Shown: one piece after another, positions 6,483-21,080 of the stretch
Layout: each line of letters opens with the position of its first letter
Position numbering within the stretch: the first letter of the stretch is position 1
IMG/VR virus record: IMGVR_UViG_3300007276_003495
Span: 1 to 22,459 of that record
DNA length: 22,459 nucleotides
From: a virus
Reading direction: 5' to 3' (one strand)
Translations under genes and position numbers: made by a program
The notes under the pieces: model-generated
Databases searched by the model: none
What the model was told of the DNA's origin: nothing
Seen by the model: only the letters and a program-made list of their open reading frames with translations

Positions 6483-7691
6483 TTAGTTAAATTTTTTTCT
6501 TCTTATTTTAAGTTTTGAAGAATCAGCACCACTTATAGCTTTAACTTTTAATCCATTAACAAAAACGTTTCCATTAGCACCTTCTTTTCTTGGTTCTGTA
6601 GTTATGTTTTTTGACTTAGCAACGACATCTTTTACAGCATCGGCTTTGCCTTGTTCATAAAAGTGTTTAGCTATTGTATCTGCGTTTCTAGCAGCATACA
6701 TGGCTTTGTGGTAACCCTTTGGATTAATTAGTTCATTATTTTCATTTAAGAACGTCTTAACAAAATCTGTAATGTCTAATTGGTTTTTAACAACATCATT
6801 AGGATTTTTAATTCCGTATCTAAAGTTTTTATCTCCTAAGTTAAAATCGAAACCTTCGAAATTTTCATTAAAAGTATCTTTAGTTACTTTTTCAAAAGCT
6901 TGACGCTGTTGAGTTACTTTTTGTTGATCTTCATTGTATCTATTAAAAAAGTCCATTGCTTTTTGTTGGTCTTCATTAACTGATGATTTCAACTTGATTT
7001 CATCATAGTATTTATTTTTCAAACCTTCTAAAAAGCTTTTGGCTTTTCCAATTTCTTCTTTATATGCTAGTTTCTTTTTTCTAACATCTTTTTCGTCATC
7101 TAGTTCTTCATCATATGAAAAATTATCTTCTAATAAAAAATTAACTTCTTCATATTCTAAGTGTGGACGAGTATTTCTGTAATATTCTCTGAGTAAAGTG
7201 TTGTTGTCTATATTGTCATAATTAGCGTTTAATCTAACATAATCCTCTATAGTAGCCCCTGGCATTTCTTCCATAAAAGAAACTAATTTTTCAATGTTTT
7301 CAGGTAGTTTTTTTCCTAACACCTTTTCATCTCTTATTGCTTCTTTTACTTCTTGTTCAACTTTTTTTGTTTCTTCTTCTACTTTCTGCACTTCTTTAAT
7401 AGGACTTTCAATGGGCTTTTCGTCTCCTTGTCCCACTTCTTGCAGTCCCACCTCGGGTCTTTCTTCGCGTAGCACGCTGCTCTTTGTTTCTGATTTTTGA
7501 ACGGCATTTTCTTCTTGTTTTACTTTACTCAAATCAACCTTTACTGGTTCTTCTTTTTTAGCAACAGCTGCAAAATCTATTTTTATTGTTTCTTCTGGAG
7601 CTGATAATTTTTTAGGTGTTTTTCTTTTTTGTTTTAACTTAAAGTCACCTTCCTGTTTAACAGGTTCATTTGTTTTTGTTTCTTCTGACAT
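6483..7691 (-). CDS. Putative capsid scaffolding protein
   Basis: This 402-aa, highly charged, Lys/Glu-rich protein sits between the portal and capsid genes, the usual place of a scaffold. Residues 1-125 are disordered and low in complexity (VKQEGDFKLKQKRKTPKKLS; EVQKVEEETKKVEQEVKEAI). The centre (about 190-280) is predicted helical or coiled coil with many Gln, Glu and Lys. The C-terminus is basic (SKLKIRRKKFN), as expected for a scaffold that docks to the inner capsid surface. An ESPIK motif occurs at residues 95-99, matching the SPIK motif of the small proteins farther upstream. The gene starts after a leader identical to that of the 251-aa gene. Confidence 0.7.
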   Translation of the reverse strand: MSEETKTNEPVKQEGDFKLKQKRKTPKKLSAPEETIKIDFAAVAKKEEPVKVDLSKVKQEENAVQKSETKSSVLREERPEVGLQEVGQGDEKPIESPIKEVQKVEEETKKVEQEVKEAIRDEKVLGKKLPENIEKLVSFMEEMPGATIEDYVRLNANYDNIDNNTLLREYYRNTRPHLEYEEVNFLLEDNFSYDEELDDEKDVRKKKLAYKEEIGKAKSFLEGLKNKYYDEIKLKSSVNEDQQKAMDFFNRYNEDQQKVTQQRQAFEKVTKDTFNENFEGFDFNLGDKNFRYGIKNPNDVVKNQLDITDFVKTFLNENNELINPKGYHKAMYAARNADTIAKHFYEQGKADAVKDVVAKSKNITTEPRKEGANGNVFVNGLKVKAISGADSSKLKIRRKKFN

Positions 7692-7708
7692 AATATAATA
7701 TAATTAAA
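7689..7708 (-). promoter_or_regulatory. A/T leader of the scaffold gene, copy of the one at 4946-4965
   Basis: This is the same 20-base sequence as at 4946-4965, covering the start codon and the 17 bases before it. It is the longest exact match I noticed between two intergenic regions here. Confidence 0.5.
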
Positions 7709-7724
7709 AAAATTGATAATTGTT

Positions 7725-10139
7725 TTATCTAGGATCAAATTGCTCTAATCCAAAACCTCCTAAATTGTCAAATCCTGCTGATTCAAAATCTTGAGGTAGT
7801 GTGTTGTTTTGTCTTTGATTTATTAGCTTTGACTCTTGAGTTCCTTGCATCTTTATTCTATTGTCTTTTCTATCTTCTATCTCTTGTTCTTTAGTTGTTT
7901 CAGCTCTAGATTTTATTTGCGCAAGCTGCATGTTGTAACTAAACTCTTCAGCCATTAAACCTTTTTTTATTTCTGCTTCTTGAAGCATTTTTTGCATTTC
8001 AAGTTGCATTTTAGAAGTTTCTATTTGTATAGTTGTTTCGGCTAAAGCTTGTTGTTTTTGCATTTCTGCAGTTATAGCAGCTTCTGAAGCTTGAGCGTTA
8101 GCCTGCGCTTGAGCCTGAATATTAGCTTGTTGATTTGCTTGATCTTGTCTAGCTTTTGCTTTTCTTTTTTGTTTTAACAGAGCGTTTGCTAGTTTTATAT
8201 TTTTTACTTGTCTAATGTCTATGGCATCATCTAAATCTATTCCACCTGACTGTAAAGCTATTTGTATGTTTTGCTCTAATTGAGCTTTAGCTTCTTCGTC
8301 TGGTTCTAATTCTAAGAATATTCCAAAATCTTGTAGATTTTTTTCTTGCAACTCCTCTAGTGTACCAGTATTGTACGATGATATAGAATCTATTAAAGCA
8401 GCTCTAGTTAACGGATATTCTAAAGCATCAGCTATTCTTAGCGCTATGTTTTCACAAGTTCTTAAAGTTAGATATAAACCACCTTGCATAACATGTCTTA
8501 GCGCTGTGTTTGAGTTTGCTGCAGCTAATTTCTGTAAACCTACAAGCGCATCTTTACTAGGCGTGCTAGCATCAGACGCTTCATTCAGACCTGTTACGTC
8601 GCGTATCATTTGTAAATAATACTGATATGTTTGTATTAAACTTTGTATTTTAGCACCACCATTACTAGTTTGAAGTTCTTGAATAGGAACTTTACCTCTA
8701 TTCAAATCACCATCTTGTGTCATAGATCTTCCAACTATAGAACCAGTTTGAAAATACATATTTAAAGCTTCAGAAGCGTTGTAGTTTGTGCCATTACCAA
8801 GATCAACCTCAGCTAAACCATCTACATCAACAAAAACCCCGTCTGGTACCATTCTAGATAGTACTTGTTGTAGTTTTAAATGAGTAAGTTGTATTATGTC
8901 CGCAAAACCTGTTATTCTACTAACTGTAGACTCTATCATTCCTTTATACATTCTAGGAGCGCATATAGAATAATTCATGTTAACTTTAGTTAGATTTGAA
9001 TTTGGTCGCGTCATGTTTTCAGACATTTTCCACTCTAACATCATTTCATGTCCTAATATTTTAGCGCCAGTATATAAAACCTCTATACTTCTACCCACTC
9101 TTTCAAAGTTATCGTTTGGTTGTGGATTAAAAGTATCTGGCTTTTCTAATGCTTTTTCAAGACCTTGATCAGTTTGTTTTATTTTAAATATTTGATTACT
9201 GTAAGTTTTGTATTCAAAATATAAAACTTGAACTTGATTATACGAATCTTGTTGCGCATAAAAGTTTCTAGTATAATTAGCGTCTCCAGGAAATTTTTCA
9301 ATTTTTTCTAATTCAGCATCTGATAAACCAGGAAATTGCTTTTTTAATTCAACTAAACTTATTGATTTAACTTCTCCAGCGTAATATATATCATCAAAAT
9401 TTGGATCTTCTGTATAAGAATAAACTAAATTAGCAGGATCTACGTAGTTAACTGTAACGCCATTAGCCAAATTAAAATCAGTTTTTACAGCTCCTATTCC
9501 TATTATAGTTAAATCTTGTATTAATCTCTTTTTTATTAAATCATATTTATTATAAGCTAAAACATTTTCAATAGCCTCTTCTTCGGCTATTTCTATTGAC
9601 TGTTTGTAGCTTAATTGCATGTGTAAGTCCAACTCCTGTTGAGTTTCAGGCAAATTGTCTGTGTCATTAGTGTTAAAGAAATTCATGCCTGTGGCTTGAT
9701 TTGTAGCTTCAATTATTTCTTTAGCATACATATCACGCATTATAGCGTCTGCATATTTTGTTCTTTTCTTTAATGACTCTGGATCTTGAGCAAAAGCTTT
9801 AATATCAAATATTTTTTGCGACATTCCATTTACTATAATATCAACAAATTTTGGTATTATTGGAACAGGTTTCCAGTCTAAGTTTAAGTAAGATAAATCG
9901 CCATTGACAGCTAATTCATCTTTATATTTTTGAACAGGTTGTTCGCCTCTTGCGTAGAGTCTTAATCTGTGAAAGTTTAACCAACTATTTTGATATCTAT
10001 TACCTAAACCCCCTCTATCTCCAGAAAACCACTCTCCTTCAATAGCTCTACCCACGGCGTAACCATAATCATAACTTTGCTTTTCTTCATCAGATACAAC
10101 CTGACTAGGAAACGAACCTGCGTAATTAGTGTAAATCAT
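7725..10139 (-). CDS. Portal protein
   Basis: This 804-aa protein should form the dodecameric portal ring at the capsid vertex through which DNA enters. Evidence is its place directly after TerL (TAA and ATG are adjacent) and before the scaffold, its length, and portal-like segments: SYLNLDWKPVPIIPKFVDII with VNGMSQKIFDIKAFAQDPES near residues 83-120, IIGIGAVKTDFNLANGVTVN with YVDPANLVYSYTEDPNFDD near 212-250, and RMVPDGVFVDVDGLAEVDLG later. Residues of about 640-760 are Gln/Ala/Glu/Lys-rich and read as a long helical barrel or coiled coil (QQANIQAQAQANAQASEAA). Long portals of this kind occur in several environmental phages, including crAss-like ones, but I cannot assign a family. Confidence 0.88.
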   Translation of the reverse strand: MIYTNYAGSFPSQVVSDEEKQSYDYGYAVGRAIEGEWFSGDRGGLGNRYQNSWLNFHRLRLYARGEQPVQKYKDELAVNGDLSYLNLDWKPVPIIPKFVDIIVNGMSQKIFDIKAFAQDPESLKKRTKYADAIMRDMYAKEIIEATNQATGMNFFNTNDTDNLPETQQELDLHMQLSYKQSIEIAEEEAIENVLAYNKYDLIKKRLIQDLTIIGIGAVKTDFNLANGVTVNYVDPANLVYSYTEDPNFDDIYYAGEVKSISLVELKKQFPGLSDAELEKIEKFPGDANYTRNFYAQQDSYNQVQVLYFEYKTYSNQIFKIKQTDQGLEKALEKPDTFNPQPNDNFERVGRSIEVLYTGAKILGHEMMLEWKMSENMTRPNSNLTKVNMNYSICAPRMYKGMIESTVSRITGFADIIQLTHLKLQQVLSRMVPDGVFVDVDGLAEVDLGNGTNYNASEALNMYFQTGSIVGRSMTQDGDLNRGKVPIQELQTSNGGAKIQSLIQTYQYYLQMIRDVTGLNEASDASTPSKDALVGLQKLAAANSNTALRHVMQGGLYLTLRTCENIALRIADALEYPLTRAALIDSISSYNTGTLEELQEKNLQDFGIFLELEPDEEAKAQLEQNIQIALQSGGIDLDDAIDIRQVKNIKLANALLKQKRKAKARQDQANQQANIQAQAQANAQASEAAITAEMQKQQALAETTIQIETSKMQLEMQKMLQEAEIKKGLMAEEFSYNMQLAQIKSRAETTKEQEIEDRKDNRIKMQGTQESKLINQRQNNTLPQDFESAGFDNLGGFGLEQFDPR

Positions 10140-12350: not shown

Positions 12351-12625
12351 TACTTAGCTCTTCCTTCTGCAAAACCACTAAAAGATTTTTCTTCTTTTAT
12401 TTCTTTTGGTTTTTCGTTTAACAAGTTTTCTTCTTCTTCAATGCGACTTAAAATTTCAAAAGCATCAAATATAGCTAATTTTTTAGTTGCAGCCGCGTTT
12501 TTTAAACGATCAGCAGATATATCATCATCTGAATCAACAATAGCTTCTTTAGCTACTTTTATTAATTCTTCAACTGCTTTTTGACCAGCTTGGATTATAT
12601 TCTTCTTCGTCTCCTTTGTATTCAT
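12350..12625 (-). CDS. Probable terminase small subunit
   Basis: This 91-aa acidic, helical protein lies immediately before TerL (TAATG overlap). Its sequence (MNTKETKKNIIQAGQKAVEE, then LIKVAKEAIVDSDDDISADR and LKNAAATKKLAIFDAFEILS) fits a conserved small protein found at this position in related environmental phages, usually called small terminase by position. I see no clear helix-turn-helix. The start at 12625 places 56 bases inside the end of the previous gene; no later Met is available in the conserved N-terminus, so I keep it. Its job would be to recognise phage DNA and load TerL. Confidence 0.6.
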   Translation of the reverse strand: MNTKETKKNIIQAGQKAVEELIKVAKEAIVDSDDDISADRLKNAAATKKLAIFDAFEILSRIEEEENLLNEKPKEIKEEKSFSGFAEGRAK

Positions 12626-13175
12626 ATTTAATTACAATATCATTTGATTTCATGCAGTATAGTCTTTTATTTTCAACTAAAAACTCCCATTCACCGTCCG
12701 GTGTATAACCAACAAGGTCTCCTTCGTTTATTTCTAGCGATTCTAAGGACTTATTTCCATATTTTAATACACCAATAAGCTTTTGCTCTTTATCAGTTAC
12801 TAGATGGTTATTATTTTTTATTGGTTGTATAAAACATCTTTCACCAAAAGAGTTGTAACCACTTTTATTTTTGTATAAATAAATTTGGTCTATTGAGCAG
12901 AAATATAAATCATCTTTAAAGTAAGATCTTGATTTTTTCTTTTTGCCTTTCATGTCGTAAAATGTTCTAAAAACATTTTGATGAACAATAACTGTGTCAC
13001 CTTTTTTTATTGGCGTTTTAAAAGCTTTAGGTGTTTCTATTACTTCTGCAAACCTGTTCACAAACTTCCAACTTTCAATTTTACTATTTAATATTAACTT
13101 TTTTTTGTCAATATTAATTTCATTATTGTAAGTTTCACCTATAGGTTTTACAATAAAATCATACAGACTTTTCAT
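12570..13175 (-). CDS. Tandem GroES-like (co-chaperonin fold) protein
   Basis: This 201-aa protein appears to hold two GroES-type β-barrels in a row. Half 1 (about residues 1-103) has LYDFIVKP, like GroES LHDRVIVK; then KKLILN where GroES has the mobile-loop GGIVL; AEVIETP like GEVLAVG; KKGDTVIVH like KVGDIVIFN; and LYFCSIDQIYLYK like VLIMSESDILAIV. Half 2 (about 108-194) repeats the pattern: RCFIQPI, LIGVLKYGN, INEGDLVGY and LYCMKSNDIVIKYE, but has no room for a long mobile loop. The duplication recalls plant chloroplast Cpn20. It lies with the terminase genes (TAATG overlap with the 75-aa gene), so it may help fold or assemble head proteins. The fold is inferred from pattern only; a structural role is also possible. 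Confidence 0.65.
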   Translation of the reverse strand: MKSLYDFIVKPIGETYNNEINIDKKKLILNSKIESWKFVNRFAEVIETPKAFKTPIKKGDTVIVHQNVFRTFYDMKGKKKKSRSYFKDDLYFCSIDQIYLYKNKSGYNSFGERCFIQPIKNNNHLVTDKEQKLIGVLKYGNKSLESLEINEGDLVGYTPDGEWEFLVENKRLYCMKSNDIVIKYEYKGDEEEYNPSWSKSS

Positions 13176-14002: not shown

Positions 14003-14404
14003 TTAATCTTTTTTGTTTGTTATTTTTTTTGCTTTTTCCCAAGTTCTACCCACAAAGTAAGCTCCATAGACTGTAACAAGAAGAGTTTGAAATATTGGGA
14101 TATACTCTTCTGCTATTTTAAATTCACCTATATTACCATGAAAAAAAGCACAAGCTGTAAATATTACTGTTAGGTATATTAAGACCATAGGGCGTATATT
14201 TTTAGATAGTTTACTATCTGACGCCATGTCTGCTTGCCACCTTGCTGTAACTTGCTCTTGTGCTTCTTTGTCGGCTTTTTCTAATATTTCTGTAATAAGG
14301 CGCTGAGCTTCAAGCTTTTCCTCTTTAGTTGTTGTAAGATTATCTAAAACCTCGCCAACTTCTTTTATGACGGAACCTGTAAGCCATTGCCAAATTTTTT
14401 TCAT
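14003..14404 (-). CDS. Holin-like membrane protein
   Basis: This 133-aa protein has a helical N-terminal half (residues 1-65, rich in Lys and Glu). It is followed by two clear membrane segments, about 72-89 (PMVLIYLTVIFTACAFF) and 101-119 (YIPIFQTLLVTVYGAYFVGR), and a basic tail (TWEKAKKITNKKD). The SKNIRPMVLIYL junction and the second segment resemble the three-TM phage holin family. A holin would form pores in the inner membrane at lysis. It overlaps the secreted-protein gene by one base (TAATG). No endolysin is recognisable in this window. Confidence 0.7.
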   Translation of the reverse strand: MKKIWQWLTGSVIKEVGEVLDNLTTTKEEKLEAQRLITEILEKADKEAQEQVTARWQADMASDSKLSKNIRPMVLIYLTVIFTACAFFHGNIGEFKIAEEYIPIFQTLLVTVYGAYFVGRTWEKAKKITNKKD

Positions 14405-14799
14405 TATATTTCTTTTCTTTTATAATAGTATGTAAAATTATAATCTCCTTTAAAAACAACTTTTAATTTGTTTTCTTCTACTAACTCATATGTTGTTTCA
14501 AAATAAGCGCTTTCGTTTTGATTATACCAATATAAAATAATTCCTTTTAATTTACCGTTTTCTTTACCGGTATATCTTATTGGTAAATATTTATATGATT
14601 TTGTTTTACAATTGTAATAATCTAAGGTTTCAACTTCTTTGTATTGCCAAAAAACTAGTTTTTTTTGAGCTTTATTAAAATATATTCTAAGATTTATTTC
14701 TGATTTTTCAGTAACCCAATGACCTTTGAATTTATTATAATCTTGAGCTTTTACACTAAAAAAACAAAATAATAATAAAATTAATAATATTTTTTTCAT
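14404..14799 (-). CDS. Secreted small β-rich protein next to the holin
   Basis: This 131-aa protein has a textbook signal peptide, MKKILLILLLFCFFSVKA, probably cleaved before QDYNKF. There is no lipobox Cys at the cleavage point, so it is a free periplasmic or secreted protein, not a lipoprotein. The mature part alternates short β-strands (GHWVTEKSEINLRIYFN, KLVFWQYKEVETLDYYN, KLKGIILYWYNQNESAYFET, LKVVFKGDYNFTYYYKR) like a small lipocalin-type barrel common in Bacteroidetes. The function is unknown: lysis aid, envelope modification or exclusion of other phages are all possible. The next gene (holin) is coupled by a TAATG overlap. Confidence 0.65.
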   Translation of the reverse strand: MKKILLILLLFCFFSVKAQDYNKFKGHWVTEKSEINLRIYFNKAQKKLVFWQYKEVETLDYYNCKTKSYKYLPIRYTGKENGKLKGIILYWYNQNESAYFETTYELVEENKLKVVFKGDYNFTYYYKRKEI

Positions 14800-14849: not shown

Positions 14850-16376
14850 TTACGCAAAAGAACCAAAATCATCAGATTCAAAAAGTTTATTCATTTTTAA
14901 CTCATCAAATCTAGTTTTTCCAGGATTTTTTTTATTATTAGAGGCAACTGTGTTTAAAGCATCTATTAAACTATCTTGATCAAACGTTCTATAAAACTCA
15001 GTTTGCTCTAAGTTATTTTCTTTTATTCTTTTTTCTAGCTTTTCTTTGTCAAACTGCTCTCCAGGTTCCATATTCAAAGCTCTTCTAAATTGATGAAAAT
15101 TATTGTAAAGCTCTCCATATTGGGTAAAATAATCTTTTAGTTGTGTTGTTGGACCTGCTTTTAATCTTAGTTTAGATCTTAAATAAGGGTCCATAGCGTG
15201 ATCTCTACCTGACTTATGTAATATTTCATGCTCACCAACATTAACACCACTTAGTAATGCTCTATTGTATTCATCTTCACCTCCGTAATTATCGTAAGAA
15301 AGATCTCTACCTACGCCTGGTATAAGCTGTTCATTTATTATAATATCACCAGTAGAAGAAATTGAACCACCTCCACCAAATCCACTTCTAGGGTTTAAAA
15401 GGTTTCTTAAATCACTATTTAAAACATCAGATTTAGCTTGACCGTAGTTACCCGTAGACATTACCTTTGGTTGTATTCCTAAATTGCTAACCATTCTATT
15501 TATAGATATATCCATGTCCATTTCACTAGCTAATTCACCTGCTTTTTCTACATTTTCGCCAAACATTTGAGAGTTTAAATCGTCACCATATCTAACATTT
15601 TTTCTGTTAAAATCAACAGGTAATGAACCTAGTTTTTGAGCTTGCTGTGGATATCTTTCTCTAGTTACTGGGTGATTAGCCCAATCTAAAGCTTGTTGCG
15701 CAGATTGTATTAAATATTGATTAGCAGGATCTTCCATGTCTAAACCACTATTTTCTAATTTATTTTGAAAATATTTTTCTTTTTCCTCTTGGCTCATTCC
15801 GTATAAAGATAACTCAATGTTTGGATCTTCGACATTAAATCTTTGATCCGTATAACCAATAGCGTATTCCATATCTGGAGACCAACTTTGATCTTGTAAA
15901 TTAGAAAGTTCATAACCAGTGCTTACATATGGATTTCTTGGTTTACTTCTGTCAGAAACATAATCTTTATCTTTAGTTTCATCTTTTTTAAGACCATAGT
16001 AAGCTTGGGTAGGTGTTAAACCAAATTGACCACTAAACGCATAAGATTCTAATTCTTCATTACTAGCATTTGGGTTTTTCTTTTTTAACTCATCTAGTAT
16101 GTAGTTTCTATAATCTTCAGTCATTCTCTGCCTTTCGCTGTATCTTTTTTTTGCTTCTTCAGCTTCTGGCTTTAAACTTAATTTTTTACCTTCAACATCC
16201 CTTAAATCTTCTTTTAGAATAAACTTAGGCTTATTAACTCTAGTATTATCTACTTGAACGTTTGGTCTTCTTTTGTCTGTTGGATTGATTGGGTGTTGAG
16301 TACCATCATGAAACTTTATAGGGCTGTTGTTTACACCACCTTTTAAATTCTTAAAATAACCTTTTTTTAATCCCAT
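14850..16376 (-). CDS. Putative metzincin-like zinc metalloprotease with N-terminal SPIK motif
   Basis: This 508-aa protein carries HEILHKSGRDH at residues 383-393, an exact HExxHxxGxxH zinc-binding motif of the metzincin type, followed by AMDPYLR, where Met395 may act as a very close Met-turn. The preceding segment (DIIINEQLIPGVGRDLSYD) and GVNVGEHE suit the edge strand and active-site helix. The first 30 residues contain VNNSPIKFHDG (SPIK at 18-21), a motif shared with several neighbours. Residues 50-340 are hydrophilic and unrecognised. There is no signal peptide or membrane segment. It ends 2 bases from the next upstream gene's stop. Possible roles are virion maturation, processing of SPIK proteins or cell entry. 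The protease call rests on the motif only. Confidence 0.6.
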   Translation of the reverse strand: MGLKKGYFKNLKGGVNNSPIKFHDGTQHPINPTDKRRPNVQVDNTRVNKPKFILKEDLRDVEGKKLSLKPEAEEAKKRYSERQRMTEDYRNYILDELKKKNPNASNEELESYAFSGQFGLTPTQAYYGLKKDETKDKDYVSDRSKPRNPYVSTGYELSNLQDQSWSPDMEYAIGYTDQRFNVEDPNIELSLYGMSQEEKEKYFQNKLENSGLDMEDPANQYLIQSAQQALDWANHPVTRERYPQQAQKLGSLPVDFNRKNVRYGDDLNSQMFGENVEKAGELASEMDMDISINRMVSNLGIQPKVMSTGNYGQAKSDVLNSDLRNLLNPRSGFGGGGSISSTGDIIINEQLIPGVGRDLSYDNYGGEDEYNRALLSGVNVGEHEILHKSGRDHAMDPYLRSKLRLKAGPTTQLKDYFTQYGELYNNFHQFRRALNMEPGEQFDKEKLEKRIKENNLEQTEFYRTFDQDSLIDALNTVASNNKKNPGKTRFDELKMNKLFESDDFGSFA

Positions 16377-16378
16377 AA

Positions 16379-16846
16379 CTAAGCATTTTTAGTTTTATCG
16401 TAAGCTTCTTTTTCCCAAGGTAAATTTTTAGCTCCTTCGTTCATTTGAGATCTAGGATATTTTTTACCTTCCCAATAAACATTATCATCATCATAAGCAA
16501 GTCGACGATCTTTTATTTGCTTAATATGAATCATTTCATGATCTATAACGTCTTGTTTTTGCTTTAGGTCTGTTATGTCTTTGTTTATAAGTATAGTACC
16601 ATTATTAGTAGCCATACCTAAAGTATCATCACCCATATCGACATGCATTATAGGTGTATTGTATTCTTCTTTAATATATGGAGACCCTTTCATTTTAAAA
16701 CCCATTTTTAAAGGAGAAGTTCTTTTCTTTTTAGCTGCTTTTAATGAAGCGTCATTTCCAGTTCCAGAGCCAGATCTTTTTCTTGCTTTATTCCAGTTTT
16801 CGCTGTGCATTAAAGAACTCCAACAGTGTTTTATAGGTGAACCCAT
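16379..16846 (-). CDS. Small HExxH zinc metalloprotease with SPIK motifs
   Basis: This 155-aa protein has an active-site helix VIDHEMIHIKQIKDRRL with HEMIH at residues 103-107. Downstream acidic residues in LPWEKEAYD (Glu145, Glu147) could supply the third zinc ligand of a gluzincin-like enzyme. It is preceded by the β-like NGTILINKD. The N-terminal 60 residues are basic, with MGSPIKHCW at the start, TSPLK at 43-47 and GSPY at 54-57. I remember similar HExxH proteins ending DDDNVYW...LPWEKEA in marine phages. The gene follows a hairpin and is next to the metzincin-like gene, so the two may work on shared targets; that is inference. Confidence 0.65.
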   Translation of the reverse strand: MGSPIKHCWSSLMHSENWNKARKRSGSGTGNDASLKAAKKKRTSPLKMGFKMKGSPYIKEEYNTPIMHVDMGDDTLGMATNNGTILINKDITDLKQKQDVIDHEMIHIKQIKDRRLAYDDDNVYWEGKKYPRSQMNEGAKNLPWEKEAYDKTKNA

Positions 16847-16868
16847 ATATTGTTTTTTTATAAATAAA

Positions 16869-16892
16869 CCCCGCGACTATTAAGCCGCGAGG
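16869..16892 (-). terminator. Probable Rho-independent terminator
   Basis: On the minus strand CCTCGCG and CGCGGGG form a 7-bp GC-rich stem (one G·U) around a 10-base loop. TTTATTTATAAAAAAAC follows. The stem is conspicuous in an AT-rich region. It lies between the 137-aa gene and the HExxH gene, and the wobble favours minus-strand RNA. Confidence 0.65.
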
Positions 16893-16916
16893 ATATATTT
16901 AATTGTTGATTAATTT

Positions 16917-17330
16917 TTATACGTCGTCAACAGTTCCAACGGACCAAGTTGACCAGTACATTTGCTTTGGTGTAGCAGCTTGATCTTTTCCTAATTGAGC
17001 TGTAGATACAACTCCACCTGGATTAGCAGTCATAGCTGAAAAGATAGCTTTGTCTGGAGCGTAAGCACCGTCTGTAATAGTTGGTACTCCAGCACTTCCA
17101 TCTTTTGTTGTTGTAACTGTAGCTGTTAAAACTCTTGCAGAGATACCTGCAGAAGCGGCATCTACTCCAAAACCACCAGCAGCAGCAGTTAAAACTGCAG
17201 TTACAACACCTGTTGAAGCATTGTAAGATACATCTCCAATGTGGTCAACATTGATTAATTTTGTACCTTGAGTTAGTAAAGCAGCTGCATCAGCAGTGTT
17301 TACCACGTTAAATTTAATGAATTTTGCCAT
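16917..17330 (-). CDS. Small virion structural / decoration-like protein
   Basis: This 137-aa, Ala/Thr/Val/Gly-rich β-type protein starts MAKFIKFNVVNTADAAALLT. Alternating hydrophobic strands follow (TKLINVDHIGDVSYNAS, GVVTAVLTAAAGG), and the end is YWSTWSVGTVDDV. Composition and the lack of charged stretches suit a decoration or fibre-base protein, similar to the 103-aa protein at 13688-13999. The start follows a CAAAA-repeat leader, and a GC-rich terminator follows the stop, so it may be a separate, well-expressed transcript. I do not recognise a named family. Confidence 0.55.
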   Translation of the reverse strand: MAKFIKFNVVNTADAAALLTQGTKLINVDHIGDVSYNASTGVVTAVLTAAAGGFGVDAASAGISARVLTATVTTTKDGSAGVPTITDGAYAPDKAIFSAMTANPGGVVSTAQLGKDQAATPKQMYWSTWSVGTVDDV

Positions 17331-17350
17331 TTTGTTTTGTTTTGTTTTTG
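17331..17350 (-). repeat. CAAAA tandem repeat leader
   Basis: On the minus strand CAAAAA, CAAAA, CAAAA and CAAA units run directly into the start codon of the 137-aa gene. The leader of the 152-aa gene (17850-17872) has a similar, less perfect run. Such A-rich leaders are a Bacteroidetes-style translation start without a Shine-Dalgarno sequence. Confidence 0.5.
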
Positions 17351-17390
17351 TTAATGATTTGTTTGACTTGGGTTTTACAGTTCCCTACTG

Positions 17391-17849
17391 TTATCCTTTT
17401 AATCCAAATTCAAGTCCTTTATCAACTTTCATTTTTAAAGCATGAATCTTTTTAAGCATGATAGGATCTCCTTTCATCATAGCTGGATCATTAGCATCAC
17501 CCATTGCGTTATAAGCTCCAGACATGTCTTTAATGTCGTCTGAATCAGCTAAGTTTTTTATAGGCATTGTTTTGCCGTCTACTTCCATTGTTGTTGCATC
17601 TGGATTTTTCTTTAATGTTTCAGCTTTTATAAAGCCTAAGTTTTTAGGAGCGTGATCCATTTTGGCAGCTGGTTCTCCGTACATTTTAGCGACGCAATGT
17701 TTTTTAGCCGGATGACTATGCTTGTCATGCTCACTGTTTTCTAAATAATGTAGTCTAGCGTTTGCAGTAAGATCTTTGTTATAAGCTTCTCTAGCATCAT
17801 ATTTTTGCCCCGAAGAATATCTCGGGTGATTTCCTGAATAATTTCCCAT
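17391..17849 (-). CDS. Hypothetical His/Lys/Met-rich protein
   Basis: This 152-aa hydrophilic protein starts MGNYSGNHPRYSSGQKYDAR. It has a His-rich stretch (SEHDKHSHPAKKHC), then AKMYGEPAAKMDHAPKNLGF, a short TMEVDGKTMPIKNL and a Met/Asp-rich region with MKGDPIMLKKI. No catalytic motif, signal peptide or membrane segment is visible. Its leader resembles that of the downstream 137-aa gene. The KGDPIMLK segment loosely recalls the SPIK motif of the neighbours but is not the same. The composition suits an internal virion or DNA-associated protein, but I do not assign a function. Confidence 0.5.
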   Translation of the reverse strand: MGNYSGNHPRYSSGQKYDAREAYNKDLTANARLHYLENSEHDKHSHPAKKHCVAKMYGEPAAKMDHAPKNLGFIKAETLKKNPDATTMEVDGKTMPIKNLADSDDIKDMSGAYNAMGDANDPAMMKGDPIMLKKIHALKMKVDKGLEFGLKG

Positions 17850-17874
17850 TTTGTTTATGTTTTGTTTTGTATTG

Positions 17875-18219
17875 TTATTGTTTGAGTTTTTCTACTGCGT
17901 TTTTTGCAATACCAAATAACCCACCAGTTGCAGCGTCTGCAAGTTTAAATTTATTTTTATTTACAAATTTTTTAGCAGTGCTAGCAAAATCGCTTACTTT
18001 TTCTCCAAAAGTTTTTGGTATTGTATTATCATATTTCCAGTCTAATTTGTCGTAAACATCTCTTCTACCTTTACTTCCTGGAGGATTGTTTGTTAACATT
18101 TGACTTTTAATAGCGTCTACACCTCTTTTTTGTAGATCGCTTGATGATACTTGTATTGAAGACCCATCGTCTTGCAATATATTTTTTTTGTCGTGATTAT
18201 TTTTAATTGGTGATGGCAT
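17875..18219 (-). CDS. Small SPIK-motif protein
   Basis: The start at 18219 (MPSPIKNNHDKK) gives 114 residues. An upstream Met at 18318 would overlap the previous gene by about 90 bases, and the chosen start places SPIK at residues 3-6, as in two neighbours (18908-19063 and 16379-16846). Other features are DDGSSIQVSSSDLQKRGVD, a basic middle and a helical, amphipathic C-terminus (FGEKVSDFASTAKKFVNK, then AATGGLFGIAKNAVEKLKQ) that could touch membranes. The function is unknown. The upstream gene's stop is 10 bases before the start. Confidence 0.55.
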   Translation of the reverse strand: MPSPIKNNHDKKNILQDDGSSIQVSSSDLQKRGVDAIKSQMLTNNPPGSKGRRDVYDKLDWKYDNTIPKTFGEKVSDFASTAKKFVNKNKFKLADAATGGLFGIAKNAVEKLKQ

Positions 18220-18229
18220 AATTTTTATT

Positions 18230-18535
18230 TTAACATTTCCAGCGTCTACGCGCTGCTTTACCTCTTTCGCCCGTCCAACCTTTGGATCTAGCGCAGAATG
18301 ATTTTCTTCTTTTAGCATCTTTGCTGCCAGGTTTTACTTTACCTGTCACAGCTGTTTTAAGTTTACTACCAGGGTTTTTCTTTCTATATTCTTTAACGCC
18401 TTTTTCTGTCATACCAGCGCCTTCTTTAGTAGTTCTAAAATTTCTACCTTTACCCTTAGTAGTTTTTCTTGGCTCGTTTTTATGTAACGGTGATTCTATT
18501 GATGATGATTCTTTTATTCTTTTTAACCAAGTCAT
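18230..18535 (-). CDS. Small basic Cys protein of an environmental-phage module (DUF6321-like)
   Basis: The start at 18535 (MTWLKRIKESSSIESPLHK) gives 101 residues and leaves a 1-base gap from the upstream stop; an earlier Met at 18601 would overlap that gene by 65 bases. The body matches a module I remember from marine phages and some algal viruses: TTKEGAGMTEKGVKEYRKK, NPGSKLKTAV, KRRKSFCARSKGW and a C-terminal RRRWKC. It is very basic, with Cys in the SFCARSKG motif and at the end, suggesting metal or nucleic-acid binding, but no function is established. An SPL motif is at residues 15-17. Confidence 0.6.
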   Translation of the reverse strand: MTWLKRIKESSSIESPLHKNEPRKTTKGKGRNFRTTKEGAGMTEKGVKEYRKKNPGSKLKTAVTGKVKPGSKDAKRRKSFCARSKGWTGERGKAARRRWKC

Positions 18536-18536
18536 A

Positions 18537-18908
18537 TTATTCTCCGCATTTTTTTGATGGATCATCAACTCTTCTCCAGTCTTCTTTTTCAAACCAGTCA
18601 CGTAATGTAGCTCCTTTTTTACGAGCGCCTTTTACATTAGTCTTTGATGATCTTTTATATTTACCTTTAGCACCAGCGGCTTTTTTAGAGTTAACTAGCT
18701 TTTGTCTTTGCTCTTTACTCATGCTTCTTATTTTAGAAGCTGGTAAACAAGTTTTAGTTGTACCGCCACCTTTTTGTTTTTTCTTTTTAACTGGCGAGTT
18801 TTTTTTACAACTGCCTTTACTATACGGATCTTTACCTTCTACTGCAGAATAACCAGACCAACATCTTTTTAAGACAGGTGAATTAAAAGGTTGCTTATAT
18901 CCTTGCAT
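18537..18908 (-). CDS. Small basic Cys protein with two SP motifs
   Basis: This 123-aa, Lys-rich protein begins MQGYKQPFNSPVLKRCWSGY, with SPVLK at residues 10-14 and NSPVKKKK at 37-44. Its body contains TKTCLPASKIRSMSKEQRQK, AAGAKGKYKRS and TLRDWFEKEDWRRV with a C-terminal DPSKKCGE. The LPxxKIRSMSKE and LRDWFxKExW...KKCG parts resemble modules seen in environmental phages and large algal viruses (remembered, near DUF5872). It is coupled by TAATG to the upstream 51-aa gene. Nucleic-acid binding is plausible from charge only. Confidence 0.6.
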   Translation of the reverse strand: MQGYKQPFNSPVLKRCWSGYSAVEGKDPYSKGSCKKNSPVKKKKQKGGGTTKTCLPASKIRSMSKEQRQKLVNSKKAAGAKGKYKRSSKTNVKGARKKGATLRDWFEKEDWRRVDDPSKKCGE

Positions 18909-19063
18909 TATTTTTTCTTTTTACCACCAAATTTACTAGGACCTCCAGCTTTTGTGCAACGCACTCCCCAGCCAGAAGCATAAGCGCTTGGCCATACTTT
19001 AAATTTTCTTTTAGCAGCAGATTTACAAGCTGAACTTATTTTCTTTATTGGTGAAATTGGCAT
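18908..19063 (-). CDS. 51-aa basic SPIK protein with FKVWPSAYASG module
   Basis: This short gene lies exactly between two TAATG junctions, at 19061-19065 and 18906-18910, which supports both ends. The 51-residue product starts MPISPIKKISSACKSAAK, with SPIK at residues 4-7. It then contains RKFKVWPSAYASGWGVRC and ends GGPSKFGGKKKK. The FKVWPSAYASG...C core is a recurring module of environmental phages (remembered as DUF5872-like), of unknown function. Two Cys residues and high charge suggest binding to nucleic acid or metal, which is inference. Confidence 0.65.
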   Translation of the reverse strand: MPISPIKKISSACKSAAKRKFKVWPSAYASGWGVRCTKAGGPSKFGGKKKK

Positions 19064-19269
19064 TATCCTAGTTTTGCTCTTTTAGTAATTGGCATACCAG
19101 CTCCACACTCACATGGTGCTTTTGAAACTTCAAGTCCATATATACCACTACTTGATCCTTTACCCATTGGGAAACCTGTTTTGTCTAGAGGTCCGTCCCA
19201 TATAGCGTTTTCACCAATTTGGCCGTCTAATTTTGGGTTACTTTTTATTTTTTCAATATCGTGATTCAT
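19063..19269 (-). CDS. Hypothetical small protein with CxC motif
   Basis: This 68-aa protein begins MNHDIEKIKSNPKLDGQIGE and contains DKTGFPMGKGSSSGIYGLEV and APCECGAGMPITKRAKLG. The CECG pair could bind a metal. The stop overlaps the next start (TAATG). The 1-to-5-base spacing on both sides and lack of alternative frames support it as a real gene. No family is recognised. Confidence 0.55.
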   Translation of the reverse strand: MNHDIEKIKSNPKLDGQIGENAIWDGPLDKTGFPMGKGSSSGIYGLEVSKAPCECGAGMPITKRAKLG

Positions 19270-19274
19270 AATTT

Positions 19275-20375
19275 TTAGTTTTTACCTTTAAATATATTAA
19301 TAGATCTTAAGAAATTACCAACACCAGTACCTTGACCTGTTTGTCTGTCTTGCCAGTTATCTCTTCTTCTTGTTATTCTAGCTGCCTTGTTTAGTTGCCC
19401 TTTGTCTTTAGCATCTTTAATTCTACTTTCGAAAGTTTGTTTATCTCTTTTAAAAGTTCCCCAAAAAGGGTCTTTGTATGGGTTTGTTACTTTAATATCT
19501 AAATTTTTATCTAAAAAAGAATAACCGCTATTATTATTGTCATTTCCACCTGTGTTTATATTTACATTTGTTCCAGGAGATGTTGATGAAGTTCCTTTAG
19601 GGTTAGAATAACTACCACTAGTATTGCCACCAGTGTTTCTTGTTGGTAAACCCGGTAAAGATAAACTTGATCCAGTCTTACCAGTATCTCTCATATAATT
19701 AGTTTTACCACTCATATCTGATTCACCAAGAGACATAGTGTTTTTTAATTGATCAACTGCACTATAAACTTTAGATGGATCAATATTAGTTTTTAGAGCT
19801 ACTGGGCTAGGTCTATTCACAGATGCCGTTCGCTCTGCTAGATCACCATAAATATTACTAGCAGCATTTATAGCTCCCATTGAAAAAGTATTACCTTGAG
19901 GTTGTTGTGCCATAGCATTATTAGCCATTCCAAATTGGGGATTGTTGTTTGTGTTATTTGTATTCATAGTTTCATTTGAAATTACTGGTTGACCTGCTGT
20001 TCCGTATGTTTGTAATTGTTGTTGTTGGTCTTGATATCTTTTTTTATTTTGAAATTTTAAATAATCCATACCTTGTTTGTCTCTGTCAGAAACATATCTA
20101 TCATCATATCTTAAATTATCAGGCAATTGCCAACTTTCATAAGCACCAACAATATTATCACCCATGCCATTAGCCCAAACTTGTTTTTCAACAGGTTTTT
20201 CCATATCGCCAGTTCCTTTACCTATGGCTTTTAAATAAGATTCTTTTTGCCACCATGGAGTACCATCATTGAAACCACCTGGCTCAAAAGAAGCTTTTGT
20301 TCTAGCCTCGTTTGTGTCAACGTAGTTTTGTAGGTTCTCATTTCTGGAGTAAAGTCTGTTAGATTTAAAACTCAT
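19275..20375 (-). CDS. Hypothetical Asn/Gln/Gly-rich protein, possible internal virion protein
   Basis: I start this gene at 20375 (MSFKSNRLYSRNENLQNYVD, 366 aa). This leaves a 1-base gap after the upstream stop, whereas the longer start at 20402 would overlap it. Residues 30-115 contain GGFNDGTPWWQKESYLKAIG and DDRYVSDRDKQGMDYLKFQ. Residues of about 115-290 are low complexity (Gln, then Asn, Thr, Gly and Ser). The last 60 are basic and helical (RIKDAKDKGQLNKAARITRR). RPSPVALK is at residues 188-195. No enzymatic motif or signal is visible. Flexible proteins of this kind are often virion-internal or ejected, which I only suggest. Confidence 0.5.
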   Translation of the reverse strand: MSFKSNRLYSRNENLQNYVDTNEARTKASFEPGGFNDGTPWWQKESYLKAIGKGTGDMEKPVEKQVWANGMGDNIVGAYESWQLPDNLRYDDRYVSDRDKQGMDYLKFQNKKRYQDQQQQLQTYGTAGQPVISNETMNTNNTNNNPQFGMANNAMAQQPQGNTFSMGAINAASNIYGDLAERTASVNRPSPVALKTNIDPSKVYSAVDQLKNTMSLGESDMSGKTNYMRDTGKTGSSLSLPGLPTRNTGGNTSGSYSNPKGTSSTSPGTNVNINTGGNDNNNSGYSFLDKNLDIKVTNPYKDPFWGTFKRDKQTFESRIKDAKDKGQLNKAARITRRRDNWQDRQTGQGTGVGNFLRSINIFKGKN

Positions 20376-20376
20376 T

Positions 20377-20823
20377 TTATCTATTTTTATCTTTATTAAC
20401 ATCGTATATAGACCTTGTTAAAACTTTATCTATATAACTGTTACCTTTTATGATGTTGTTTCTTCTTTTGCTAGTAGGTATATCTTCTTCCCCTAACATT
20501 ATTTTATATATCCTAATTATAAGTTGTTTAAATTTAAAAGAAACTTTATATATATTATATTTTTGTGTTGTTCTGTTTCTATGCCTCCAAACAACTATCC
20601 AGTTTTCTTTTATTAATTTATTCCACCTTCTGTTGTTCCAACTGTAAGAATATGTACCTTTTATAAAATCTTTTTTTGTAAAATAATTTACGGCGTCTAG
20701 ATATATTAAAAGTTCTAATTCAGCGTCAGTTAAGCCGTTGTTTTTGCAAGCCCATTTGCGTATTATACGGTAATGTTTTAACAGATTCAATTCTTTAATA
20801 TCTTCTGCGTCTAGCTTTCTCAT
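20377..20823 (-). CDS. Winged-helix-like protein after groES
   Basis: This 148-aa basic protein has an N-terminal helical part (RKLDAEDIKELNLLKHYRII, then NGLTDAELELLIYLDAVNYF). It continues with TYSYSWNNRRWNKLIKENWI and VVWRHRNRTTQKYNIYKVS, the pattern of a winged-helix (MarR-like) fold in which a helix, a recognition helix (NRRWNKLIKE) and a β-wing (WIVVWRHRNRTTQKYNIYKV) follow each other. The C-terminus is a basic tail (PTSKRRNNIIKGNSYIDKVL). I remember this family from marine phages. It may regulate late transcription or bind DNA in the virion. It starts by an ATGA overlap with groES. Confidence 0.6.
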   Translation of the reverse strand: MRKLDAEDIKELNLLKHYRIIRKWACKNNGLTDAELELLIYLDAVNYFTKKDFIKGTYSYSWNNRRWNKLIKENWIVVWRHRNRTTQKYNIYKVSFKFKQLIIRIYKIMLGEEDIPTSKRRNNIIKGNSYIDKVLTRSIYDVNKDKNR

Positions 20824-21080
20824 ACAACAACGACCACGTCTTGTGACTTTATAACGTGATATATATTTTTTTCAAACTCTATTTTATGACCAGCGTGTCT
20901 ATCAAAAAATATTTCATCATTTTCTTTAACACCATCAACTTCATTTCCAACTGATATTACTAGTGCTCTTCTGTATCTTAAATCATTTTTTTGATTTTCA
21001 GAAAGAAGTAAACCACCTTTTGTTTCTGTAGTTCCTTCTTTTTTGACTAATATTATTAAGTTTCTACCTATTGCTTTCAT
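20820..21080 (-). CDS. groES: Phage GroES co-chaperonin
   Basis: This 86-aa protein forms the lid of the chaperonin chamber. It shows NLIILVKKEGTTETKGGLLL, matching the first strand and mobile loop of GroES (RVIVKR...GGIVL); then ALVISVGN, like GEVLAVGN; and VKENDEIFFDRHAGHKIEF, like VKVGDIVIFNDGYGVK, with YHVIKSQDVVVVV as the last strand. The hydrophobic LLL tripeptide that docks on GroEL is kept. It is slightly shorter than the usual 95-100 residues. It overlaps groEL by 17 bases and the winged-helix gene by 4, so the three are probably translated together. Order is groEL then groES, opposite to the common bacterial order. Confidence 0.85.
   Translation of the reverse strand: MKAIGRNLIILVKKEGTTETKGGLLLSENQKNDLRYRRALVISVGNEVDGVKENDEIFFDRHAGHKIEFEKNIYHVIKSQDVVVVV

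Follow-up and report, generated by a model that had tools for sequence, protein, structure and literature searches.

A short motif, S-P-[L/F/I/V/M]-[K/N] in its general form, recurs in the N-terminal tails of numerous small late proteins that are otherwise unrelated. Its carriers are uncultured marine phages that form a large group and probably infect Bacteroidota. The motif is non-random, N-terminal, late-only, conserved as protein, portable and found on basic proteins. Because it combines these properties with shortness and with occurrence on unrelated basic proteins, we favor the reading that it may serve as a portable docking tag which packages small basic late proteins by way of a partner in the head, and we give this reading slightly less than an even chance.

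Source DNA and phage clade

The DNA analyzed here (the window) is a 22,459-nucleotide fragment of the IMG/VR virus record IMGVR_UViG_3300007276_003495 and encodes 29 proteins. All genes used in the analysis lie on the minus strand, in the order GroEL, GroES, a block of small genes (20823-12350), TerL, portal, putative scaffold, major capsid protein and further virion proteins. Gene names were taken from PHROG, and the scaffold was assigned from its position between the portal and capsid genes. Beside TerL, a 201-aa protein (12570-13175) matches phrog_13932 (co-chaperonin GroES) and is separate from the GroES gene proper at 20820-21080. A 131-aa protein at 14404-14799 has a signal-peptide-like N-terminus (MKKILLILLLFCFFSVKA) and adjoins a holin-family gene (phrog_3427, 14003-14404).

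The nearest cultured or complete relative is an unclassified podovirus from Manatee Spring (63% TerL identity), followed by the Flavobacterium phages elemo (45%) and, at greater distance, by phages of Cellulophaga, Maribacter and Tenacibaculum. Many uncultured contigs are far closer to the window (78-88%). Relatives carried in MAGs are often, though not solely, binned with Bacteroidota, so a Bacteroidota host is likely for the clade. A TerL match, mostly at 71-85% identity, was present on 48 of 50 tested contigs bearing modules of the 51-aa, 123-aa and DUF6321 types (Table 1), and these contigs therefore belong to one clade. The TerL frames of contigs G067 (7231-9437) and G037 (32422-34630) are split or interrupted by stops, for which sequencing error, gene decay or an intron are all possible.

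The motif in the window

The residue positions originally claimed for SP(I/L/V)K motifs in neighboring proteins all hold (Table 1).

Table 1. Motif-bearing and related proteins of the window; positions are those of the window.
Feature	Coordinates	Strand	Motif (residues)	Pfam
Putative scaffold	6483..7691	-	ESPIK (95-99)	
508-aa late protein, HEILH motif	14850..16376	-	SPIK (18-21), in N-terminal tail	
155-aa protein, tail 1-61 and minigluzincin-like core 62-155 (HEMIH, WEKEAY)	16379..16846	-	SPIK (3-6); SPLK (44-47)	
114-aa protein starting MPSPIK (internal ATG of 147-aa ORF)	17875..18219	-	SPIK (3-6)	
101-aa DUF6321 protein, tail before core	18230..18535; longer starts 18565 or 18601	-	SPLHK (15; 37 in GTG-started ORF)	PF19846
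123-aa two-module protein: SPVLK, CW-GY module, SPVKK, KGGGT...KKCGE core	18537..18908	-	SPVLK (10); SPVK (38)	
51-aa DUF5872-like protein starting MPISPIK	18908..19063	-	SPIK (4-7)	PF19197, below cut-off
68-aa conserved late protein	19063..19269	-	untagged in window	

The original prediction had proposed that the motif be weighed against composition, and its frequency proved to be far above that level: within-protein shuffles of the 29 proteins gave an expectation of 0.28 for SP[ILV]K, which occurs seven times (0/2000 shuffles reach 7), and of 0.09 for SPIK, which occurs five times. The proteins of 14850-20402 hold six SP[ILV]K against 0.11 expected, and SP[LFIVM] lies within residues 2-60 of 6/29 window proteins (1.0 expected). 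Conservation was likewise borne out, as the motif turns up again across the clade, both in homologues and in proteins unrelated to these.

The predicted extension to the scaffold fared less well. ESPIK is indeed present there, but its membership of the tag system is poorly supported by 42 homologous scaffolds, in which the site is conserved as I-x-E-[V/I] while S is kept in only ~40% and P in only ~50%. Since the conserved element is IxE[VI] and SP is poorly kept, sequence comparison indicates that the scaffold copy is probably a separate feature. Cleavage sites of the T4 head protease are of the [I/L]-x-E type, and scaffold residues about 95-101 recall this type.

The tagged proteins themselves differ widely. 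Few relatives of the 508-aa protein were found, namely close copies at loci L269 and L270, a further relative at L271, and longer forms with SPVKM/SPLRM tails at L003 and L005. A 114-aa ORF in relative L003 supports the start chosen for the 114-aa protein, whose group is tagged in all six members. The 101-aa protein passes the Pfam cut-off for DUF6321 (E=2e-11, 44.7 bits vs 28.5); the 51-aa protein misses that for DUF5872 (E=0.005, 17.7 bits vs 27.5) and is termed DUF5872-like only. The 123-aa family has no Pfam match, and comparison by sequence of the 155-aa and 123-aa families with solved structures gave nothing convincing. The model of the 123-aa protein, itself of low confidence, is poorest at residues 1-11, 40-49 and 84-97; the first and second of these segments lie at or beside its two motifs. 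The core of the 68-aa protein follows an MK..SPLK tail in 2/25 family members.

Enrichment across the clade

In an unbiased count of all tripeptides at residues 2-61 of 232 gene families from 82 clade contigs (family counts being approximate, as BLAST grouping may separate distant homologues or merge proteins that share modules), SPL ranked first, with 29 families against 2.84 expected (z=15); PLN (z=7.7) and SPF (z=6.4) came next. The third motif position is L in 48% and F in 21% of cases clade-wide, and the I/V of the window is a local variant. For 11 near-complete clade genomes with simple ATG ORF calls, genes on the same strand as TerL were defined as late; 67/501 of these carry SP[LFIVM] in residues 2-60 against 18.6 expected (sd 4.2). 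Early genes (9/399 vs 10.4 expected) and late proteins of at least 450 aa (5/106 vs 4.3) show no such enrichment. Along small late proteins the motif peaks at residues 2-15 (33 vs 4.6 expected) and then falls, and the last 40 residues, taken as a C-terminal control, are not enriched (5 vs 4.4). The reordered forms PS[LFIVM] and [LFIVM]PS and the variant AP[LFIVM] gave no enrichment comparable to that of SP[LFIVM] in the same 11 genomes.

As orthologues repeat across genomes, protein bodies were also grouped strictly, with the tail removed and any pair with E<=1e-3 joined. Twenty groups were at least half tagged, against 2.9 expected and a maximum of 7 in 100 shuffles. A short N-terminal peptide is thus common to non-homologous late proteins, as expected of a T4-type capsid targeting sequence. 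Among small late proteins, those with the tag are the more basic (+0.089 per residue vs +0.014 for those without, p=1e-8), and the difference persists outside the first 60 residues (+0.08 vs +0.006). Most genes for the tagged proteins are located upstream of TerL, and others form a second cluster ~27 kb on its downstream side.

The tag was enriched in none of the cultured phages checked; the five cultured sister phages together gave 7/216 against 8.5 expected. A tblastn search with a tail peptide and with the 123-aa protein found no match among 50,697 phage records.

Portability of tails and modules

In IMG/VR homologues of the 51-aa, 123-aa and DUF6321 proteins the tails are highly variable, with the motif directly before the conserved core. 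Near the core, [SNT]P[LFIVM] occurs in 46/59 non-redundant tails of 51-aa homologues (3.5 expected), 17/27 of DUF6321 homologues (1.4 expected) and 18/26 of 123-aa homologues (1.1 expected; the 123-aa alignment, A2, includes two fragments and one misplaced neighbor gene, L178). It also stands ahead of the CW-GY module in 25/29 cases (2.6 expected) and of the HC-MHS module in 6/6 (0.4 expected). Residues 1-47 of the 155-aa protein are found in other genomes detached from its core, at two loci (L235, L236) the 51-aa core is preceded by a fused HC-MHS module, and the same cores occur within the clade both tagged and untagged.

Synonymous codons vary among the window's eight tail copies and among 195 non-redundant motif instances of the clade; conservation and selection therefore act at the protein level. 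The same variation rules out both a recent duplication and conservation of an element at the DNA level.

DUF6321 identity reaches ~80% with proteins of Pelagibacter and Synechococcus phages, and this comparison suggests that the small basic module may be exchanged between phages of unrelated marine hosts. The tail is absent from the four DUF6321 homologues of such phages that were read. On contig G002 (728-1557), near the contig end and ~35 kb from TerL, a neighboring gene pair shares GISRK(S/T)SPLND and carries SPLN tags.

A proposed docking tag for virion cargo

We propose that S-P-[L/F/I/V/M]-[K/N] may act as a short linear docking motif within N-terminal tails that are disordered, and that it would bring numerous small late proteins, unrelated and mostly basic, to a single partner. 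The likeliest partner would be part of the head under assembly or of its core. Proteins recruited in this way would then enter the virion as internal cargo, much as with the T4 capsid targeting sequence. Phages of the clade would acquire small modules (DUF6321, DUF5872-like, CW-GY, HC-MHS and others) and prefix the tag to them, and as these modules recombine the motif would be retained before each. Partner binding, the location of the partner in the head and packaging of the tagged proteins are steps that we infer from pattern and precedent. Among the original suggestions of a targeting tag, a virion-incorporation signal or a protease site, the first two fit best with an N-terminal, late-only and portable motif on small basic proteins, and the third is less likely.

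The precedent is the N-terminal capsid targeting sequence of T4, ~10 aa long, which encapsidates virtually any attached protein (PMC7697877). As on the T4 internal proteins IPI-III (PMC7697877, PMC3012670), a short and portable N-terminal peptide is here placed on diverse small proteins. The T4 sequence is removed by the head protease, whereas the clade motif, known from sequence alone, has a core of 3-5 residues, is often present in multiple copies and also stands between modules. The resemblance is in the proposed manner of working only, and we claim no homology. An excerpt of the report on the Bacteroides phage crAss001, which likewise has a Bacteroidota host, describes several phage-made cargo proteins stored in its head and tail (PMC10172136); these are large (60-277 kDa, RNA polymerase and others), and no shared short N-terminal tag is described in that excerpt. 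Polyvalent phage proteins, which are multi-domain and co-injected, are also mentioned as injected (PMC7824862). Within phrog_727 and phrog_3477, single large PHROG families that may belong to this class, the 51-aa and the DUF6321 module match different portions, so that elsewhere they are fused; in the clade, by contrast, most modules are separate small genes, each with its own motif. Literature searches found no paper on SPLK, SPLN or SPIK in phages, no similar N-terminal packaging signal besides that of T4, and only unrelated work under the DUF names of the tagged modules.

The parallel with the T4 capsid targeting sequence, together with small basic proteins recorded as structural in the sister phage phi38:1, makes virion incorporation the most likely destination of the tag. 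The phi38:1 proteins in question are gp69 and gp80, whose GenBank notes cite a different phage and thus lend limited support; a homologue of gp80 is present in the clade (E=3e-12). A paper checked for direct virion evidence does not mention gp69 or gp80. Three observations count against a docking tag. Internal copies between modules are superfluous for a single tag, cultured sister phages, which likewise have small late proteins, manage untagged, and, when a narrower motif is used, tagged genes near TerL are few or absent at many of the related loci.

A possible but doubtful elaboration of the docking tag is a clade-specific addressing code, in which a motif of 3-5 residues placed before new modules loads variable internal proteins into the head. 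Repeated motifs would set valency, or would allow release of the modules by a dedicated minigluzincin-like protease.

The 155-aa core and alternative readings

The candidate for such a protease is the 155-aa protein. Most of residues 1-61 have pLDDT <50 in its model, so that the tail appears to be disordered, and the core is predicted with confidence. Across 10 homologues of the core H103, E104, H107 and E145 are invariant and E147 nearly so, which combines HExxH with a later conserved Glu (WExxAY) in the manner of minigluzincins and SprT/IrrE-like proteins. Foldseek also found a resemblance of the core to SprT, IrrE, abylysin and selecase-like folds (probability 0.9-1.0), with E about 1e-4 against viral SprT-like models and no significant match in the PDB (best E=0.13, probability 0.99). 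The likeness to abylysin/selecase minigluzincins and to IrrE/SprT-like peptidases thus lies in the HExxH and WExxA motifs and, weakly against solved structures, in the predicted fold; the putative peptidase core differs from them in sitting behind a disordered, tagged tail.

The main rival explanation, which we regard as unlikely, is that the motif is a processing site at or near which (SP[LF]xK) this minigluzincin-like HExxH protein or another protease cuts, trimming N-termini and separating fused modules during head maturation. Such a site accounts for motifs between modules better than a docking tag does, and the motifs stand at module junctions in stretches that appear unstructured in the models. 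The HExxH/WExxAY family is moreover present in 11/11 near-complete clade genomes and 0/5 untagged sister phages, but this co-occurrence with the tag is one evolutionary event and not eleven. Processing is made less likely by the many copies at residue 3-4, where a cut would take off almost nothing, by the large late proteins without enrichment for the motif and by the untagged homologues of the same cores.

The motif might instead gather small proteins, with no packaging involved, at a late complex in the cell and outside the virion; candidates would be the phage chaperonin, the replicated DNA and a site of assembly. Many tagged genes do lie in the GroES-TerL block and their products are basic; this reading is nevertheless also unlikely, as the tag is missing from sister phages that have the same chaperonin genes and the small basic phi38:1 proteins are recorded as structural.

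Linkers commonly contain S, P and K, and the motif is found between modules, so it could be merely a favored flexible linker that travels with recombining modules and binds no partner. We consider this improbable, given that residue order and the hydrophobic residue matter in the reordered and variant controls, that the bias to residues 2-15 is strong, and that the residues stay while codons diverge. Coincidence or composition, with nothing but the shortness of the motif in its favor, is ruled out for practical purposes by the shuffle, early-gene, C-terminal, reordered-motif and sister-phage controls.

Biological significance

If the tag loads cargo, sequence alone would suffice to pick out internal virion proteins from the thousands of small genes without a name that this large marine phage group carries, and a second encapsidation tag, short enough for portability, would stand beside that of T4. 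What these phages bring into the host would then become directly testable. If the motif is instead a protease site, a candidate maturation protease would have been identified along with its substrates.
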